Source: Candidatus Solibacter usitatus (GTDB taxonomy: Bacteria; Acidobacteriota; Terriglobia; Bryobacterales; Bryobacteraceae). Taken from it: 64,000 nt of DNA. A model generated the notes under the pieces. That model saw only the letters and a program-made list of their open reading frames with translations. It made no database searches and was not told the DNA's origin. The stretch is taken from positions 1 through 64,000 of the forward strand of contig JACPVQ010000205.1 in the NCBI GenBank assembly GCA_016191645.1, given 5' to 3'. Position 1 is the stretch's first letter, and every line of letters begins with the position of its first letter. This document shows positions 17,109 through 36,095 of the stretch, one piece after another. The position numbers were made by a program, and so were the translations under genes.

Positions 17109-18389
17109 CTATACTCTTGGCTGAGCCTTGCGCCACCTCGCCAAACGCGCGGCCAGCGTTCGCACCACTGCCGGATTCCGCGCCGCCACGTCGCGAGTTT
17201 CGGATGGGTCGCCGGCCAGATCGAAAAGTTGGCGTTCTCCGGTTTGCAGAAACTCAATCAACTTCCAGCGCGCATCGCGAATGGCCATGCTCGATTTGCC
17301 GCCCAGCGCATGGTCCTTCTCCAGCGGGTAATACCAATAGAGGTCGCGAGCTTTCCATTTCGCGGCGGGATTACGCAGCAATGGCGCAAGCGACCTGCCG
17401 TCGGTCCGCGTCACCGACACCTTTGACAAATCAAGAAACGTAGCGTAGTAATCCGTGCTGACCACAGGCGTCGCGCACGTCGCGCCTCTAGGAATCACTC
17501 CCGGCCATCGGGCGATCAACGGCACGCGGATGCCGCCTTCGTAGAGATGCGATTTCCCACTGCGCAGATGCGCATTGGTGGTGACGTTCAACTCGCCACC
17601 GTTGTCGGAGTTGAAAATGACGATGGTGTCGTTGTCGAGATTGCGGCGCGCGAGTTCGCGCAGAATCATCCCCACGCCATCGTCGATCGATTCCAGCATC
17701 GCCGCGAGCACGGGATTGTTTTTTCGCTGCGATGCCCCAGGCCGGTTCTTGTACTTCGCTACTAAATCCGGTTTGCCTTCCAGTCGCGTGTGCGGCGCGT
17801 AATGGGCCAGGTAGAGAAAGAACGGCTGCGTACTGCGCGCGATGAAATCGACCGCCTCCTGATTTAATCGATCGGTCAGATACTCATTGGGCGCGCGTGC
17901 CTCCAGCCCTTGCAGATGCTTGTATGGATGCCAGTAGTATCCTGGGCCGATGTAGCTGGTCTCGGAGCAGATCACTTCGTCGAACCCGTGCAGCTTGGGA
18001 TCGCCGGGGCGCTTCGCATAATCGCCCATCAGGTGCCACTTGCCGATCAGCCCCGTGCGGTATCCGGCCTTCTTGAGCATCTTCGGCAAGGAAGGGAGTG
18101 ACGGTCGTAAGTGATTCGGATCGTCGGCGCGCAGAAAATCCGTGATGCCGACGCGCGCCGGATGTTGGCCGGTCATGATGGAGGCGCGTGTCGGCGAACA
18201 AACGGGCGCGGCGGAATACGCGTTGTGAAAACGCATTCCCTCAGCGGCCAGCCGGTCGAGGTTCGGTGTCTGATTAAACGTGTTGCCGTAGCAGCCCAGC
18301 TCACCCCAACCGAGATCGTCGGCAAGAATGAAGATGATGTTCGGCGGCCGGCGAACCAGAGCGAGGTATGCAAACTCGCGGCGTGTCAT
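17109..18389 (-). CDS. Type I sulfatase (formylglycine-dependent)
   Basis: The protein has the sulfatase signature CSPTR at residues 64-68; Cys64 would be converted to formylglycine by a separate maturase not seen in this window. The metal-binding pair lies in FILADDLGWGELG, and GKWHLM and the FNSDNGGE segment complete the active site. No strong signal peptide is visible: the N-terminus MTRREFAYLALVRRPPN begins like a short Tat-type sequence, so export is uncertain, or the true start lies elsewhere. It is the first gene of the sulfatase-glycosidase operon. It presumably removes sulfate esters from a polysaccharide or glycosaminoglycan so that the glycosidases can act. Confidence 0.9.
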   Translation of the reverse strand: MTRREFAYLALVRRPPNIIFILADDLGWGELGCYGNTFNQTPNLDRLAAEGMRFHNAYSAAPVCSPTRASIMTGQHPARVGITDFLRADDPNHLRPSLPSLPKMLKKAGYRTGLIGKWHLMGDYAKRPGDPKLHGFDEVICSETSYIGPGYYWHPYKHLQGLEARAPNEYLTDRLNQEAVDFIARSTQPFFLYLAHYAPHTRLEGKPDLVAKYKNRPGASQRKNNPVLAAMLESIDDGVGMILRELARRNLDNDTIVIFNSDNGGELNVTTNAHLRSGKSHLYEGGIRVPLIARWPGVIPRGATCATPVVSTDYYATFLDLSKVSVTRTDGRSLAPLLRNPAAKWKARDLYWYYPLEKDHALGGKSSMAIRDARWKLIEFLQTGERQLFDLAGDPSETRDVAARNPAVVRTLAARLARWRKAQPRV

Positions 18390-18427: not shown

Positions 18428-18567
18428 TGTGGGGTCAGGTCTCCAGACCTGCCGCGGGATCTCAAGATCCCGCATGGCCTCGCAGAGGCCATCGGCCGCT
18501 TTCTCAATTTCTGCCGGCAGAGCCGGTCTGGAGACCGGCTCGCAGATCTGGAGATCTGCCCCACAGA
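18428..18567. repeat. Modular hairpin element, copy A
   Basis: Five perfect hairpins lie in tandem: 18436-18451 (CAGGTCT-CC-AGACCTG), 18454-18473 (GCGGGATCT-CA-AGATCCCGC), 18476-18490 (GGCCT-CGCAG-AGGCC), 18520-18541 (a 10-base stem with GG centre) and 18542-18559 (GCAGATCT-GG-AGATCTGC). The right end reads CTGCCCCACAG. The left hairpins have CC or CA centres within TCT..AGA and the right ones GG, so the whole element is roughly inverted-symmetric. A conserved CCGGCAGAG precedes the right pair. It lies downstream of the parvulin gene and upstream of the sulfatase gene, both leftward. Confidence 0.85.
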
Positions 18568-18576
18568 GGAAAGATA

Positions 18577-19623
18577 TTATTTCTTGCCCCAGTTGTCCGA
18601 TACTTTGATGGCAAAGAAGTTCATCACGCGGGCGTCGTTGCGGGCAACCTCGTAGTAAACTGCGCGCAGCAGTTGATCTTTGCGGTTGATCAACTGATCG
18701 CGGATGCTCTGCTGCACGCGCGGATCGTTCAACTCCCGCTGGCCCGCGGGTTCCTTGGACATCACTTTCAAAATGCGATACTCGTTGTCGCTGCGGATGG
18801 CCGGAGAAACCTGTCCCGGCGACAATGCCATCACCATCTTGCGCAACTCGGGGTTCGTCTTATCCAATGACGATTCGCCGATGAATCCCATGTCGCCGCC
18901 ATTGGGAGCGCTGTTGGGATCTTCGGAAAAATTCTGCGCCAGCATGGCGAAGTCTTCGCCGCCGCGCGCGCGCGCTTCCAGGTTGAGCACTTTCTTGCGC
19001 GCCTGTTCGTCGTTCTTCGCCTTATCGCGCTTCAGGTTGCGCACGTTGGGATCGGGTTTCGAGGTGACCACAATCTGCGCCAGGTGAACATGCGGTTCCG
19101 CCAAATGGAAGCTGGCTTTGTTGGCGTTGTAGAAATCCGTAACCTCTTTGTCGTTGATGGCGATCTTCGACGTGATCTCCTTATTGAACAGCTTTTGAAT
19201 ACTCAGGTCGCGGCGCAACTGCGTTTTGAGGTCTTCCACGCTCATGTTGCGCGCTTGCAGCTGTTTCTGCCACTCCTCCTGCGTGTAGGGCGCTTTCAGT
19301 TCGTTGAACTTCGCGTCCACTTCCGGCTCGGTGGCCATCAGGTTCAGTTTCTCCGCGCGCTGCAACATGATTTCGTTGTCCACCAGCGTGCGCAGCAACT
19401 CCAGCTTTTGATAGTTGGTTTGCTCCTCGCTCGGCTTGTCGCCTTGCTTGTCGGGCGCTGTGCCGAATTGAAAGCGGAACTGCTTGTCCACCTCGGCATA
19501 ACTCACGGGGCGGCCGTTGACGGTTGCCGCGACATCGGCGGGAGGCTTGCTCTTGCACCCGGTCAGGCCAACGGCGGCAGCCAGGAAAGCGGCCGGCAAG
19601 TAGGTGTGAAGCAGGACTCTCAT
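18577..19623 (-). CDS. SurA/PpiC-like parvulin peptidyl-prolyl isomerase lipoprotein
   Basis: The 348-residue protein has a lipoprotein signal ending in LTGC (Cys about residue 23), a SurA_N-like helical chaperone region (about 30-170; VNGRPVSYAEVDKQF, LRTLVDNEIMLQRAE) and a parvulin domain (about 175-300; VHLAQIVV, FAMLAQNFSEDPNSAPNGGDMGFI). Known relatives help outer-membrane proteins fold in the periplasm. It follows holB by 8 bases in a leftward operon. The membrane anchor points to the outer or inner membrane periplasmic face, as in PrsA-like proteins. Confidence 0.9.
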   Translation of the reverse strand: MRVLLHTYLPAAFLAAAVGLTGCKSKPPADVAATVNGRPVSYAEVDKQFRFQFGTAPDKQGDKPSEEQTNYQKLELLRTLVDNEIMLQRAEKLNLMATEPEVDAKFNELKAPYTQEEWQKQLQARNMSVEDLKTQLRRDLSIQKLFNKEITSKIAINDKEVTDFYNANKASFHLAEPHVHLAQIVVTSKPDPNVRNLKRDKAKNDEQARKKVLNLEARARGGEDFAMLAQNFSEDPNSAPNGGDMGFIGESSLDKTNPELRKMVMALSPGQVSPAIRSDNEYRILKVMSKEPAGQRELNDPRVQQSIRDQLINRKDQLLRAVYYEVARNDARVMNFFAIKVSDNWGKK

Positions 19624-21841: not shown

Positions 21842-21946
21842 GGTGGGGCAGATCTCCAGATCTGCGGAGGGGTCTCCAGACCCCGACTCGTTCGCGCAGC
21901 GAACGATGGCCGCTGCGCGGCCATGCGGGATCTGGAGATCCCGCTG
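21842..21946. repeat. Modular hairpin element, copy B/C, left half
   Basis: The left outer flank GTGGGGCAG is followed by hairpins at 21848-21865 (GCAGATCT-CC-AGATCTGC), 21869-21884 (GGGGTCT-CC-AGACCCC), 21889-21905 (CGTTCG-CGCAG-CGAACG), 21906-21924 (ATGGCCGC-TGC-GCGGCCAT) and 21925-21944 (GCGGGATCT-GG-AGATCCCGC). The series stops exactly at the inverted repeat of the insertion sequence. The missing right half lies at the other side of that IS, at 23709-23799. Confidence 0.85.
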
Positions 21947-21962
21947 CTCGACTTTGGCCTTT
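21947..21962. repeat. IS terminal inverted repeat, left
   Basis: CTCGACTTTGGCCTTT matches the reverse complement of the right end (CTCGGCTTTGGCCTTT) at 15 of 16 positions. It begins two bases after the last hairpin of the left repeat half. Confidence 0.8.
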
Positions 21963-21968
21963 TGTCCT

Positions 21969-23596
21969 TCACCCATTGGCGTAGCAAACAGCGGATGCGA
22001 TAGGGAAAGAGTATTTCTCCGGCTTCCTATCTGCGGGCGGTTTCGACGCGAAGCCGGAGAAACTATCAATGCCGAGGCCGCGTCCCCAAACCTCGGCACG
22101 CAAGTTATGCAGCAGTTGTTGTGTTGAGTTGCGTGGGCCCTTGGAACTGGCAGCCCATTTGGGTTGGGGCAGCAAGCCCTCGCTGGAATGGCCGAAGGCG
22201 CGCTGCCCGGCGACCAGCAGCATGCCATAAGCAGCGACGGTGAGTGCTGGGGCGGATTCGACGGAGGTCTCCGCTCGCACCTGTGCTTGGCCAACACCGA
22301 GCAGAGTCTTCTCGTCACGGAAGTTTACCTCGATGTCCCAGCGCTGGAAGTACGATTCGATGATCGTGCGCGGGTCCAGTTCCGGGTCGGTGCAGATGAG
22401 GAATGCGGGATCGCGATAGAGCAGTTTGGAGCCTTTGCGCAAACGGTAGGCAAGCGGCCGGATGACGATCAGTTGCAGCAACTGGGCACCCGTTGTGCGC
22501 CATAACAGATGGGGAATGCGTTTATAGCAGAGTGTATGACTGATGCCGGAATGGACGAACGTCATGGTTTCCCAGGGTTGGGAATCACTGCTGCGGAATT
22601 GATCGGGAGTGGGAGCGGCAGCGCCGTAAACAAGACGGCGGCCCTGAGCTTTCCTCTGGTCAGAGTCCGGCGGAAAACACAGATTGGCATCTTTTCGAAT
22701 TCGTCCGATACAGACGGTGTGAGGTGGAATTTGCTTCAACACAGTGGAGTTGGTGAAGCCGCCGTCGAAAGCGAGTAATAAGGTGCGGTTGCGGCCACCG
22801 GGATCCAGATCCAGGGACTGGCGGAGTAGAATCATCTGCTGGGCAGCACGCAGACTGAGCCGGGACGAACTTGCGTCCAGACGGTATTGGGTGCGGTCGG
22901 CGTCGGTAGCCTGACGACCCGGTTTGGGCGGCGTGGGAGCGTGAAGGAAGGCAATGGGAGCCAACCGGAATGCTCCTTCTTTGCCGGGCATGGCGGCGGA
23001 GATCTGAAGAAAGCGCTGTGCACGTACGAAGTTGGTCTGGAAGCGCGGCCCGAGCGGATCTCGTCGCCAAGCCACTCCTGGCGTATGCAGACCGGAGCGG
23101 CGCAGGAGTGTATCGTCGATGACGGCGCGAAACGGTGCGCCGGCGGGCAGTTCGTCGGCGATCGCACGGCGGACGACAGAGAACATCTCCGGCAGGGGAA
23201 GCCGATCATGAGAGAAGAGTCTATAGGAAGCGCTCCAATCGCGAAACTGAGAGCCGGAAGTGGTGAGTAGGCCAGTGACGGTGCGGCGGCCGAGACAGAG
23301 AAGAGAGCTCAGCGCGAGGGTTTGCGCGTGATCGGCGACACGGCGCTGTGGGAAGGCGGGGAGGCATTGGTTCCAGAGGTGCTCGAACTGGGGGAGGAGA
23401 CCGGCGGAGTTTTTTTTAAAGCGGACGGCGGAGGATCGCGACGATGCAGGGCAAGCAGGGCCTTATTCTCGACAATCCACTCGACGGTTTCGCCGCGAGA
23501 GAACTCCATCGCCTGAGCGAGAGCAGAGGGAAAGTTGATATACCACTGCTCGCTGGCAGCGCGTTTGATGAGTTGGACTTTGGTGGGGAACCCCAT
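21969..23596 (-). CDS. IS transposase (DDE, IS4/IS701-like) made by -1 frameshifting
   Basis: The first frame runs from ATG 23596 to 23309 and holds an AbrB-like N-terminal domain (VQLIKRAASEQWYINFPSAL, then EFSRGETVEWIVENKALL). At an A8 tract (23410-23417) a -1 shift joins it to the second frame, which reads LKKNSAGLLPQFEHLWNQCL and continues without a stop to 21969. The catalytic domain has Asp in FRAVIDDTLL, Asp in LLLAFDGGFTN and Glu in IEVNFRDEKTLLGVG. The joined product is about 542 residues, and similar transposases that I recall carry this N-terminal domain and catalytic domain in one chain. Without the shift the first frame ends after a low-complexity tail and the second lacks its first about 135 residues. 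Confidence 0.8.
23411..23417 (-). other. Slippery heptamer A_AAA_AAA for -1 frameshifting in the transposase gene
   Basis: Read on the minus strand the zero frame is TTA AAA AAA ACT. A one-base backward slip gives TTA AAA AAA AAC TCC and enters the catalytic frame. A AAA AAA C is an efficient slippery sequence in several IS families, and A8 also allows transcriptional slippage. An inactivating one-base deletion would look the same. Confidence 0.6.
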
Positions 23597-23708: not shown

Positions 23709-23799
23709 TCGGCCGCGAAGCGGCCGCCTGGGAGATTCCGTTGCTACCGGCAGAGACGGTCTGGAGACCGTCTCGCAGATCTGGAGATCTGCCCCACAG
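23709..23799. repeat. Modular hairpin element, copy B/C, right half
   Basis: Hairpins at 23711-23725 (GGCCGC-GAA-GCGGCC), 23753-23774 (10-base stem with GG centre) and 23775-23792 (GCAGATCT-GG-AGATCTGC) are followed by the right outer flank CTGCCCCACAG. The conserved CCGGCAGAG precedes the last two, as in copies A and D. The leftward Rieske reading frame runs into this half and ends inside it at 23744. Confidence 0.85.
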
Positions 23800-24832
23800 C
23801 GAGGAACTCCTCTAACAGAAGGTGGAAATGGTGTACGCCGTTTTCCCGTTTCACGGAGTAACGTCCGCGATCGTACGAGCGTGATTGCAACCCCTTCTGC
23901 ACGGATTCACAGATGCGGATATCTTCCTGTTGGATCTCATCGCTGAAGGCAATTGCCGCCGGGTCCAACTCCTTCCCGGCGTAACTGAACCATTCAAAAA
24001 TCGTCAACGTCCGGTCGTGACCCAGCGGAAGGATGATGTTGACGCTCAGATTGTCCGGGTAGATGTTCAACATCAAGTTGGGAAAAACCCAATAATAAAG
24101 CGCCTGTTGACCAGCCGCCGCATCATCGTAGCGGCGAGGTTCATCGCGCCCGGACCGCGGCGGACGGATGGGCGCGTACTGTGACGAATAGTAGCGCGCG
24201 GTATCGACGCGATATGCGTTGTAGTCGAGCTCGCGAAACAACGACGGATGCGCGGCGGGCAGATGGTAGCCCTCCAGATAGTTGTCGACGTAAACCTTCC
24301 AGTTGCAGGCGATCGTGTAATCCCGCCTGTGGGCGAAATGCAGCCGCTGAGCGTGTTCAGGAATGCCTTGAATCATCTCAGCGAACGGAATTGCCTGCGC
24401 GTCGAGATTGACAAAAACGTATGGACCCCACTCCGTCAAACCATACGCCGGCAAGCGCACATCTTCCTTCTTCCAACACTCGACGCCCTCAAATTCCGGT
24501 GCGTTCAACAGGTTGCCATCCAAGGCGTAGGTCCACGCGTGATAAGGGCAGCGAAGCGATTTCGCATTCCCGTGCTCTGAAAGAATCACGGATGCGCGGT
24601 GGCGGCACACATTGGAGAACGCTCGCAATATTCCATCGTGCCCACGTACAACGGCGACAGGCTCGCCGGCAATCTCACCGGCGCAATAATCTCCGACATT
24701 TGCAACCTGTGCCCGGTGGCAAAGAGGCTGCCAGGTTCGCCAGAAAACACCTTCCTTTTCAGCGTTTAGAAAAGACGGGTCCGTATACCATTGCGAAGGA
24801 ATTGTGGACGCGCGTGCTAGGTTGGGCTCCAT
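23744..24832 (-). CDS. Rieske non-heme iron oxygenase, alpha subunit
   Basis: The protein of about 362 residues has the Rieske [2Fe-2S] motif CxH (CRHRAS) and CxxH (CPYH) at about 75-100, and the mononuclear iron site in the C-terminal half (VDNYLEGYHLPAAHP, two His plus a later acidic ligand). The overall pattern resembles the betaine/carnitine/choline monooxygenase branch of the ring-hydroxylating oxygenase family. ATG 24832 is chosen because the upstream extension is arginine-rich and overlaps the divergent permease gene. The natural C-terminus probably ended near HHFHLLLEEFLA; the last about 17 residues (VGQISRSARRSPDRLCR) are translated from the hairpin repeat. A reductase partner is not encoded nearby. 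The substrate is unknown; a quaternary amine is plausible. Confidence 0.85.
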   Translation of the reverse strand: MEPNLARASTIPSQWYTDPSFLNAEKEGVFWRTWQPLCHRAQVANVGDYCAGEIAGEPVAVVRGHDGILRAFSNVCRHRASVILSEHGNAKSLRCPYHAWTYALDGNLLNAPEFEGVECWKKEDVRLPAYGLTEWGPYVFVNLDAQAIPFAEMIQGIPEHAQRLHFAHRRDYTIACNWKVYVDNYLEGYHLPAAHPSLFRELDYNAYRVDTARYYSSQYAPIRPPRSGRDEPRRYDDAAAGQQALYYWVFPNLMLNIYPDNLSVNIILPLGHDRTLTIFEWFSYAGKELDPAAIAFSDEIQQEDIRICESVQKGLQSRSYDRGRYSVKRENGVHHFHLLLEEFLAVGQISRSARRSPDRLCR

Positions 24833-33842: not shown

Positions 33843-34407
33843 GTTGCACACGCCGCTGACGGAAGCGGACATCCGGCAATTGAAACTGGAGGACACCGTC
33901 TCCATCGACGGTACTATCTTCGGAATCCGCGACGCTACGCAAATTCGTATTTTCGATGAAGGCATCGCGCCGCCCGCCGATCTCACGGGAGGCATCTGCC
34001 TCCACACCGCGCCGGGCGTTCGCAAACGCGCGGACGGCACATACGAGAAGCTCTCCATCGGCACTACGACCAGTACGCGCATGGATCGCTTTGCGCCGGG
34101 TCTCATCGAGACGTACGGCGTGCGCGCCATCGTAGGGAAAGGCGGATTGCTGGAAGGCAGCATCGACGCAATGAAGCGGACGGGCGCGGCCTACTTCGCC
34201 ATTGTCGGCGGCGCGGCGGCGCTCGAAACCATGCAGATCGAAGAGATCGAACAAGTGTGGTGGGAAGACCTGATGCCGGAGTGTTTGTGGAAGTTTCGCG
34301 TCAAGTCGTTTGGACCGCTTATTGTCGCCATCGATTCTCACGGCAATAGTTTGTACCGGCGCGTGCAGGAAGAGGCCGCGGCCCGCATCGCGGCTATGCA
34401 GTTGTGA
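33823..34407 (+). CDS. Class I fumarate hydratase beta subunit
   Basis: The 194-residue protein matches the C-terminal swivelling domain of class I fumarases (FumA C-terminus). Visible motifs are LEDTVSIDGTIFGIRDATQIR, IGTTTSTRMD, and VGKGGL with a TGAAYFAIVGGAAAL segment. Either ATG 33823 or 33829 is the start; both lie within the alpha gene's last codons. The two subunits together make the active site. It ends overlapping the GTG start of the acetyltransferase gene. Confidence 0.9.
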   Translation: MAMAHFELHTPLTEADIRQLKLEDTVSIDGTIFGIRDATQIRIFDEGIAPPADLTGGICLHTAPGVRKRADGTYEKLSIGTTTSTRMDRFAPGLIETYGVRAIVGKGGLLEGSIDAMKRTGAAYFAIVGGAAALETMQIEEIEQVWWEDLMPECLWKFRVKSFGPLIVAIDSHGNSLYRRVQEEAAARIAAMQL

Positions 34408-35234
34408 GCGCGCCCTTCTGCGACATCCAACTTGCCCGGCGTCTGGAGCGCGCGGAAGGACATGCCTGCGCGCAGTTTGCATTGGCGCGCCGCAAACTTT
34501 TCCCGGCGAGCGGCGCTGAGGTGATGGAACATGCGGGCGCCTATGCGGTCTTCGACGCCATCGGCTCCGCGGTCACGCAGAGTTTCGGCCTCGGCATCTT
34601 CGAAGAGCTGAGCGCGGAAACACTGGATGCGATAGAGCGCTTTTTTCGCGACCGATGGGCGGATGTGGACCTTGAAGTGAGCCCTCTCGCCGGGGTGGCA
34701 GCGTTGAGTTTGCTCTGTGAAAGAGGGTACAGGCCCATCGAGATCAGCAATGTTATGTACCGACCTGTTGAAGAGCCGTCATCAGGCGCCGGGGATGGCA
34801 TCAAAGTTCGAGTGGCGGGGCCGGGAGAGATGCAACTCTGGAACACAACAGCCGCAAAGGCCTGGGTGTACGAACACCCCGAACTGGAGGAGTTCTTCCG
34901 TGAATTCGGCGCGATCGCCTCGGCACGCGAGGCGTGCGTATGTTTTCTCGCTGAGTATGACGGCCAGCCCGGGGCTTCAGGCGCACTCTCCATCCATGAA
35001 GGGGTGGCGTTGTTCGCCGGTGCGGCCACTGTGCCTGAGTTGCGGCGTCGCGGACTGCAGGCGGCGTTGTTGCAAGAGCGTATGCGCTACGCATTTGAGC
35101 ATGGCTGCGACTTGGCGATGATGGCGGCGGAGGCGGGAAGCAACTCCCAACGCAACGCCGAGCGCAAAGGATTTCGCGTCGCCTACACGCGCACCAAATG
35201 GCGCTTAAGTCCACGCTGCACTACTACCCTCTAG
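34404..35234 (+). CDS. GNAT-family acetyltransferase
   Basis: The 276-residue protein has a degenerate N-terminal half (possibly a second GNAT-like repeat) and a C-terminal GNAT domain with acetyl-CoA binding motif VPELRRRGLQAALLQERM and the later GSNSQRNAERKGFRVAYTRTKW. GTG 34404 overlaps the fumarase beta stop, so it is the last gene of the sdh-fum operon. Whether it modifies one of those enzymes or a small molecule cannot be told. Confidence 0.8.
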   Translation: MSAPFCDIQLARRLERAEGHACAQFALARRKLFPASGAEVMEHAGAYAVFDAIGSAVTQSFGLGIFEELSAETLDAIERFFRDRWADVDLEVSPLAGVAALSLLCERGYRPIEISNVMYRPVEEPSSGAGDGIKVRVAGPGEMQLWNTTAAKAWVYEHPELEEFFREFGAIASAREACVCFLAEYDGQPGASGALSIHEGVALFAGAATVPELRRRGLQAALLQERMRYAFEHGCDLAMMAAEAGSNSQRNAERKGFRVAYTRTKWRLSPRCTTTL

Positions 35235-35241
35235 AATCTTT

Positions 35242-35360
35242 GGTGGGGCAGGCCTCCAGGCCTGCAAGGCGGTCTCCAGACCGCCTTTGCGGAGTAATCG
35301 TACTTCCGGCAGAGGCGATCTGGAGATCGCCTCGCAGGTCTGGAGACCTGCCCCACAGAG
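35242..35360. repeat. Modular hairpin element, copy D (most complete and compact)
   Basis: A 9-base outer inverted repeat (GTGGGGCAG at 35243-35251, CTGCCCCAC at 35348-35356) encloses four hairpins: 35248-35265 (GCAGGCCT-CC-AGGCCTGC), 35266-35287 (10-base stem, CC centre), 35312-35333 (10-base stem, GG centre) and 35334-35351 (GCAGGTCT-GG-AGACCTGC). The spacer holds the conserved CCGGCAGAG. It lies between the convergent ends of the acetyltransferase gene and the SDR gene, which fits a two-way terminator or mRNA end-protection role. Confidence 0.9.
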
Positions 35361-35375: not shown

Positions 35376-36095
35376 CTACATGGCGGTCCAGCCGCCATCC
35401 ACGGGAATGATCGCGCCCGTGATGTACGACGACGCATCCGAAGCGAGGAACAACGCGGCGTAGGCCACCTCGCGCGGATCGCCCGTGCGGCCGAGAAAAG
35501 TCTTGCCGATCTGACGCGCGTGCAGTTCGTCACCGGGCTTCGGCGAAATGCGGGTTTGAATTGCTCCGGGGCAGATGGCGTTGCATCGCACGCCGTGGAG
35601 CCCGTAGTCGTAAGCGACGCTGCGTGTATATCCCGCGAGCGCGTGTTTGAGGCTCGTGTATGCCGCCGAAGTTCGCGCGCCTACCATGCCCTGCACCGAC
35701 GATATGTTAATGATCGAACCGCTCTGTTGGCGGATCATGTGCGGCAACACAGCCTTCGTGAAATGCTGCGTGCCCATCAGCGAAACGGCGAAACATCGCT
35801 CGAATTCCGCTTCGTCCGCTTCCAATGCGCCATGCACCTGGCCGAGATAAGCGGCGTTGTTGCAAAGCACGTCGATGCGGCCGGAAACGGCAAGCGCCTC
35901 TTCCACCACGCGCACGGCATCGGCCGAGATGGACACGTCCGCGCACAAACAGCGGATGCCTTCCATCGCGGAAGCTTCCTCGATATCCGCCACAACCACA
36001 CTCGCGCCGGCATCGCGAAACAGTTCGGCGATCGCGCGTCCGATGCCGTTTGCGCCACCCGTAACAATCGCCGTTTTGCCGTTGAGGTGGATCAT
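35376..36095 (-). CDS. Short-chain dehydrogenase/reductase
   Basis: The 239-residue classical SDR has the cofactor motif TGGANGIG near the N-terminus, structural CNNAAYLG, catalytic Ser in IINISSVQG, and YTSLKHA with the Tyr and Lys. The Asp in VVVADIEEA after strand 2 favours NAD(H). The C-terminus ends with the usual DGGWT. It uses an alcohol or ketone substrate of unknown identity. Start overlaps the stop of the SMP-30 gene (ATGA), so both probably act on a common sugar-acid or alcohol pathway. Confidence 0.9.
   Translation of the reverse strand: MIHLNGKTAIVTGGANGIGRAIAELFRDAGASVVVADIEEASAMEGIRCLCADVSISADAVRVVEEALAVSGRIDVLCNNAAYLGQVHGALEADEAEFERCFAVSLMGTQHFTKAVLPHMIRQQSGSIINISSVQGMVGARTSAAYTSLKHALAGYTRSVAYDYGLHGVRCNAICPGAIQTRISPKPGDELHARQIGKTFLGRTGDPREVAYAALFLASDASSYITGAIIPVDGGWTAM

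Follow-up and report, generated by a model that had tools for sequence, protein, structure and literature searches.

A hairpin element between convergent genes and its putative RAYT transposase point to a REPIN-RAYT system in a Bryobacterales genome

Results

Copy D is a double-armed hairpin between two convergent genes

The window, that is, the whole stretch of 64,000 nt that we analysed, contains a GNAT acetyltransferase gene (34404-35234, plus strand) and, convergent with it, a short-chain dehydrogenase gene (SDR, 35376-36095, minus strand). Between them lies a 114-nt element, here named copy D (35243-35356), with the stop codon of the GNAT gene 8 nt before it and that of the SDR gene 19 nt past it. 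Copy D consists of two inverted arms (35243-35287 and 35312-35356), each composed of two hairpins with TGGA/TCCA loops and a GTGGGG foot. On the plus strand, the left outer REP unit (35243-35265) comprises the foot GTGGGG and the hairpin GCAGGCC-TCCA-GGCCTGC, and is followed by the left inner hairpin (35266-35287, AAGGCGGTC-TCCA-GACCGCCTT). After a spacer of 24 nt (35288-35311, TGCGGAGTAATCGTACTTCCGGCA), the right arm runs on the minus strand, with the inner hairpin (35312-35333, GAGGCGATC-TGGA-GATCGCCTC) and the outer REP unit (35334-35356, GCAGGTC-TGGA-GACCTGC, then CCCAC, the GTGGGG foot of the minus strand). The two halves can pair into a single long hairpin with calculated energies of -52.7 kcal/mol as DNA and -100.8 kcal/mol as RNA (z of -12 and -13.8, respectively; 0 of 200 shuffles were equally stable). 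The initial annotation had described copy D as GC-rich, nearly symmetric and placed between convergent genes, and this description was confirmed.

The end of the GNAT gene together with the flank of copy D (35217-35243, CACTACTACCCTCTAGAATCTTTG) is similar to a tract, TGTACTACTACTCTCTAGAATC, that adjoins other copies. From this resemblance, the neighbourhood of copy D may have shaped the GNAT C-terminus. When we searched relatives for an empty site, GNAT homologues were found, but fumarase and SDR genes were not beside them; since the flanking genes are non-syntenic in these relatives, no orthologous empty site for copy D was obtained.

Three more copies are present in the window. Copy A (18429-18564) is a REPIN with a decayed left inner hairpin, located between a SurA/parvulin gene (18577-19623) and a sulfatase gene (17109-18389), both on the minus strand. 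Copy B (21843-21947) is a REPIN without the last outer unit and lies about 28 nt after a DDE_5 transposase-like gene (21969-23186, minus strand). Copy C (about 23709-23797) represents the right half of a REPIN and overlaps the 3' end of a Rieske oxygenase open reading frame (ORF, 23744-24589, minus strand). Copy A had been described as following the parvulin gene, which is correct (it lies about 14 nt past it), but it is also located about 37 nt upstream of the sulfatase start. The single 'copy B/C' said to follow the Rieske gene merged two things: copy B comes after the DDE_5 gene, and copy C overlaps the Rieske 3' end. Across the window, TCTGGAGA occurred 15 times versus 1.2 expected, with a maximum of 5 among shuffled sequences.

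Two side observations concern these copies. The last codons and the stop of the Rieske ORF come from copy C (23744-23797). The DDE_5 gene is flanked by the partial REPINs B and C; REPs have been reported as insertion sites of other elements (PMC1525189).

The element belongs to a large family in one genome

The palindromic core GGTCTGGAGACC was found at 310 exact sites in the 4.47 Mb source assembly (G000), and its reversed-letter control at none. Among 60 relatives, the same core occurred 0-7 times per genome, and 0-3 times in the 11 congeners included. The sequence TCTGGAGANCTGCCCC gave only single stray matches elsewhere in the class, with one genome (G137) excepted. This genome, from another genus of the same family, holds a small related set (L245, L247, L249, L251, L253, L255) that ends in GGTCTGGAGACCTGCCCCAC and whose hairpins are partly different.

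In a sample of 1.39 Mb, enriched because some contigs were picked for their hits, 259 tetraloop hairpins had TGGA/TCCA loops, while the next tetraloop was seen 15 times. The same enriched sample contained 107 element clusters, of which 40 showed the most frequent layout, two inverted hairpin pairs ('--++'). Full-length REPINs in the assembly measure 99-222 nt, and their spacers often contain one or two extra hairpins. In copy D, as at most element ends, GTGG(GG) precedes the outer hairpin. With 297 outer-end matches genome-wide and the 107 clusters, we estimate a few hundred REPIN loci; since the assembly is 79% complete and its contigs break at elements, these counts are lower bounds.

The stems are maintained as pairs. 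In the outer hairpin, the variable pair was Watson-Crick in 115 of 117 units (A-T 83, G-C 31, T-A 1) versus 69 expected if both positions were independent. For the variable pairs of the inner hairpin, 94-161 of 163 were Watson-Crick versus 58-87 expected, a count that is somewhat inflated because only inner units with at least 6 of 8 matching pairs were included. As the loop was part of the covariation search pattern, its constancy rests on the tetraloop count instead. Judged from these sequences, stem pairing is either selected or restored by copying, and either is compatible with an element processed as a hairpin. A strong fold with covariation could also mark a conserved structured RNA such as a regulator or riboswitch. 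However, an Rfam search with the element gave no match, the genes ahead of the copies are unrelated, the copies are dispersed in either orientation, and a transposase gene is bracketed by the same arms (see below), so that we regard such an RNA as extremely improbable.

Elements prefer convergent gaps

Genes were called with a purpose-written codon model (89% coding). Only 3 of the 93 sampled elements lay within called genes; the family is extragenic. Occupancy of intergenic gaps was about 39% for convergent, 9% for tandem and 3.5% for divergent gaps. Counted over the first 1.39 Mb and gaps with a net length of at least 40 nt, elements were present in 29 of 75 convergent, 31 of 299 tandem and 4 of 144 divergent gaps (P=2e-12 by gap number, P=2e-9 by available bases). 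These contigs were mostly picked for containing hits, which raises element density and should not favour a gap type. An additional 237 kb contributed 3, 2 and 2, respectively. In 1.63 Mb, 72 elements were intergenic (32 convergent, 34 tandem and 6 divergent). Elements in tandem gaps were located at a median of 46 nt from the upstream stop and 43 nt from the downstream start. The proposal that all hairpins lie at gene 3' ends captured a strong tendency, not a rule, given the 34 tandem and 6 divergent cases among the 72. A 3'-end bias, whose absence from the genome-wide set would have counted against the initial annotation, does exist (P of about 1e-9 to 1e-12).

If the elements were retained as bidirectional transcription terminators or attenuators at gene 3' ends, strong enrichment in convergent gaps and a hairpin that is highly stable in both directions would be expected, and both were observed. 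But at copy D we found no T-run terminator, and we rejected it as an intrinsic (Rho-independent) terminator, which would combine hairpin and T-run. Among element ends, a T-run followed in 1 of 147. In convergent gaps, ordinary T-run terminators were equally frequent whether an element was present (7 of 26) or absent (16 of 58). Taken together, the scarcity of T-runs and the equal terminator rates mean that the elements neither resemble nor replace intrinsic terminators, and the terminator reading offered earlier finds no support in the sequence. Many copies moreover lie in co-directional gaps, often less than 50 nt from the next start, and exclusion from promoters gives the same bias. We therefore consider retention as terminators highly unlikely; Rho-dependent or attenuation effects may occur.

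By analogy with E. coli REPs, hairpins in transcribed 3' regions might keep 3' exonucleases from degrading the upstream mRNA, or might serve as binding sites of gyrase or IHF, and this benefit might maintain the family. Transcription from at least one side is expected for most copies, and compensatory changes maintain the stems. In tandem gaps, asymmetric elements weakly prefer one orientation to transcription (23:8, P=0.011). However, this test was post hoc and sensitive to calling (19:3 under stricter calling), and fresh contigs yielded one callable tandem element, a sample too small for confirmation. Local GC skew predicts gene strand weakly (654:507), so that replication strand and transcription are inseparable as causes, and the bias could be linked to either replication or RNA. 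Compensatory changes are equally expected if a RAYT requires a hairpin of single-stranded DNA, and the family is absent from the congeners (0-3 core sites each). In our judgement, an RNA- or protein-binding benefit that maintains the family is unlikely. Unrelated REP families occupy mostly convergent or unidirectional gaps, which has been taken to hint at an RNA function (PMC3733652). For the present family, a 3'-end bias would also result if insertions into promoters and genes were selected against, and removal of insertions from promoters explains the bias at least as well as function does.

A RAYT gene is bracketed by the same arms

Contig C62 of the source assembly encodes a 189-aa protein of the HUH/Y1 type (P0001, C62:81-647) whose gene is bracketed by double-hairpin arms: it starts shortly past the left arm and ends shortly before the right one. 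The left arm is, base for base, the reverse complement of the right arm of copy D. The adjoining bases, TGCCGGAAGT, are also found in the spacer of copy D, the right part of which (as reverse complement) matches the start of the C62 unit. From the arm identity and the TGCCGGAAGT match, copy D looks like the C62 RAYT unit minus its gene.

P0001 was recognized as Y1_Tnp (5.7e-10), and a profile of the RAYT family retrieved E. coli TnpA_REP in the RAYT-REP complex 4ER8 (8e-12). The same structure was the best fold match for the AlphaFold model of a homologue that is 60% identical to P0001 (L161, pLDDT 85). Aligned with 4ER8, P0001 conserves NHVH, the catalytic tyrosine and the WQ-D-R contact residues, and it carries the motif YIAANP (YIxxNP). 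The residues W94, Q95, E100, H101 and R104, which contact the GTAG foot in E. coli TnpA_REP (roles according to PMC6006769), correspond to W142, Q143, D148, R149 and R152. With a predicted Y1 HUH fold, an HUH motif, the tyrosine and the guide contacts, the C62 protein can be classified as a putative RAYT (TnpA_REP).

Only two Y1_Tnp genes were found in the source assembly, on contigs C62 and C167, i.e. one RAYT per repeat family. The second RAYT (contig C167, L062 1998-2660) has the repeat GCAAGC-TGAA-GCTTGC-CCCAC, with a TGAA loop, which is rare in this assembly. Like the C62 family, the C167 repeat ends in CCCCAC.

RAYTs and hairpins are paired across Bryobacterales

RAYT homologues of other Bryobacterales sit inside inverted GTGGGG...CCCCAC hairpins that differ in stems and loops. 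Inverted arms that match exactly over at least 14 nt were detected at 21 of 41 RAYT loci, 15 of them with a GTRG foot, compared to 1 of 620 control windows from the same contigs; half of the homologues are without detectable exact arms. When the RAYT-adjacent hairpins of three genomes were each searched in six genomes, they occurred 129, 61 and 12 times at home and 0-6 times elsewhere. A one-RAYT-one-repeat relation is the rule in REP systems (PMC6006769), and the copy counts of these three genomes conform to it. In the congeners, RAYTs are patchy, with an identity of at most 56%.

RAYTs have been described as single-copy, non-transposing, vertically inherited genes (PMC8049555). Genome G428 contains two whole RAYT units with both arms (L284 on contig C296 and L285 on contig C223) that are 92% identical over 745 bp. 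Both have open frames, and their outer flanks differ. These two dispersed units suggest movement of the RAYT gene itself. Such movement, and a RAYT gene located in a unit whose ends match those of the short copies, would fit an ordinary insertion sequence of the IS200/IS605 type that has miniature derivatives, instead of a domesticated RAYT. Against this speak the TnpA_REP-type motifs (NHVH, WQ, YIxxNP), 4ER8 as best match for both family profile and fold, the single RAYT per repeat family in the source assembly and a very high ratio of miniatures to genes. We think that the system is probably not an ordinary insertion sequence of this kind.

Beyond their arms, the two G428 units are common for about 30 nt on the left and 17 nt on the right, and then diverge. 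In the source assembly, an outer flank of 20-60 bp was common to another end at 37% of element ends versus 0.6% of controls, with three main classes. These tracts (AGAGCAGCACAGCCGCAACCAAAG..., ACAAAxTCGGCAAATGTCC... and ATCGGTTTTCATCxCGATTCGTGGGCCCC...) recur beside elements and almost nowhere else; examples are L065:15991, L072:11741 and L115:3468. Together with the shared margins in G428, the shared flanks suggest that the REPIN extends past the hairpins to its true ends, as do IS200/IS605 elements; the alternative is a target preference.

Discussion

We conclude that copy D is very probably a REPIN of a REPIN-RAYT system in a genome of the Bryobacterales (Acidobacteriota). The resemblance to REP elements pointed out in the initial annotation can thereby be made specific: the units are inverted, 310 core sites exist, and the C62 gene lies between the arms. 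By sequence, the family combines the features of REPs and REPINs, namely a GT[AG]G foot, an inverted doublet, a high extragenic copy number and a cognate RAYT. The repeat family has almost certainly been spread by its own transposase.

Several known systems are similar. REPIN-RAYT systems of Pseudomonas fluorescens SBW25 and others (PMC3116915) share inverted REP doublets that form one hairpin of about 100 nt, high copy number, an extragenic position and a RAYT flanked by the same repeat. In contrast to those, the present elements have two hairpins per arm, other stem and loop sequences, a RAYT gene at the spacer position of the full-length unit and an acidobacterial host. E. coli REP/BIME elements and TnpA_REP (4ER8; PMC8266576) have in common with our system a GTRG foot, the hairpin, an HUH-Y1 enzyme, the pattern WQ...(E/D)(H/R)..R and a location near gene ends. 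Here, however, the foot is GTGG and not GTAG, the stems are perfect without the E. coli bulge, and identity in the fold alignment is 19%. REP families tagged with GTAG/CGTC (PMC3733652) likewise form dimers with tags often outside, in convergent or unidirectional gaps near ORF ends, and some of them lie within shared flanking tracts; they differ in sequence, whereas ours carries a GTGG tag and resides in an acidobacterial host. Within the same phylum, class 3 TnpA_Y1 of Solibacter usitatus is a Y1 transposase surrounded by high-copy hairpins (about 600 copies reported, PMC6006769). That class is characterized by a CnGA foot and Y----Q, while the present family has a GTGG foot and YIAANP (YIxxNP), and we do not assign it to class 3. 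In our literature search for REPs or REPINs in Acidobacteria, PMC6006769 and PMC3733652 were the only relevant reports, and no RAYT-REPIN pair of the present kind was described for the phylum. Thus, the REPIN-RAYT system is of a known kind, and its host group is new for such a class within the literature searched.

How might such a family spread? The most likely target of the C62 RAYT is single-stranded DNA with the GTGG foot and the hairpin, and the enzyme would copy the element into new sites by transposition. Copies would then persist where they do least harm, in convergent gaps more than in co-directional ones and rarely at divergent promoters, with negative selection as the presumed cause of the location bias. 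A benefit at the RNA level, if any, would be secondary.

For the Bryobacterales RAYTs, we tentatively consider a further scenario, which is possible though somewhat less probable than its negation. RAYTs would then be more than domesticated single-copy enzymes: enclosed in a full-length REPIN, the gene would form part of an autonomous travelling unit of about 0.7 kb, from which miniatures arise. In each lineage, the GTGG foot would have been retained while stem and loop were exchanged along with the RAYT, so that matched pairs of enzyme and hairpin would have arisen as a natural series.

What had been an unexplained hairpin can now be assigned to a mobile family that is defined together with its enzyme. 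The 3'-end bias of hairpins is, by itself, not evidence for termination or RNA stability. Matched RAYT-hairpin pairs within one bacterial order could reveal how RAYTs choose their repeats.
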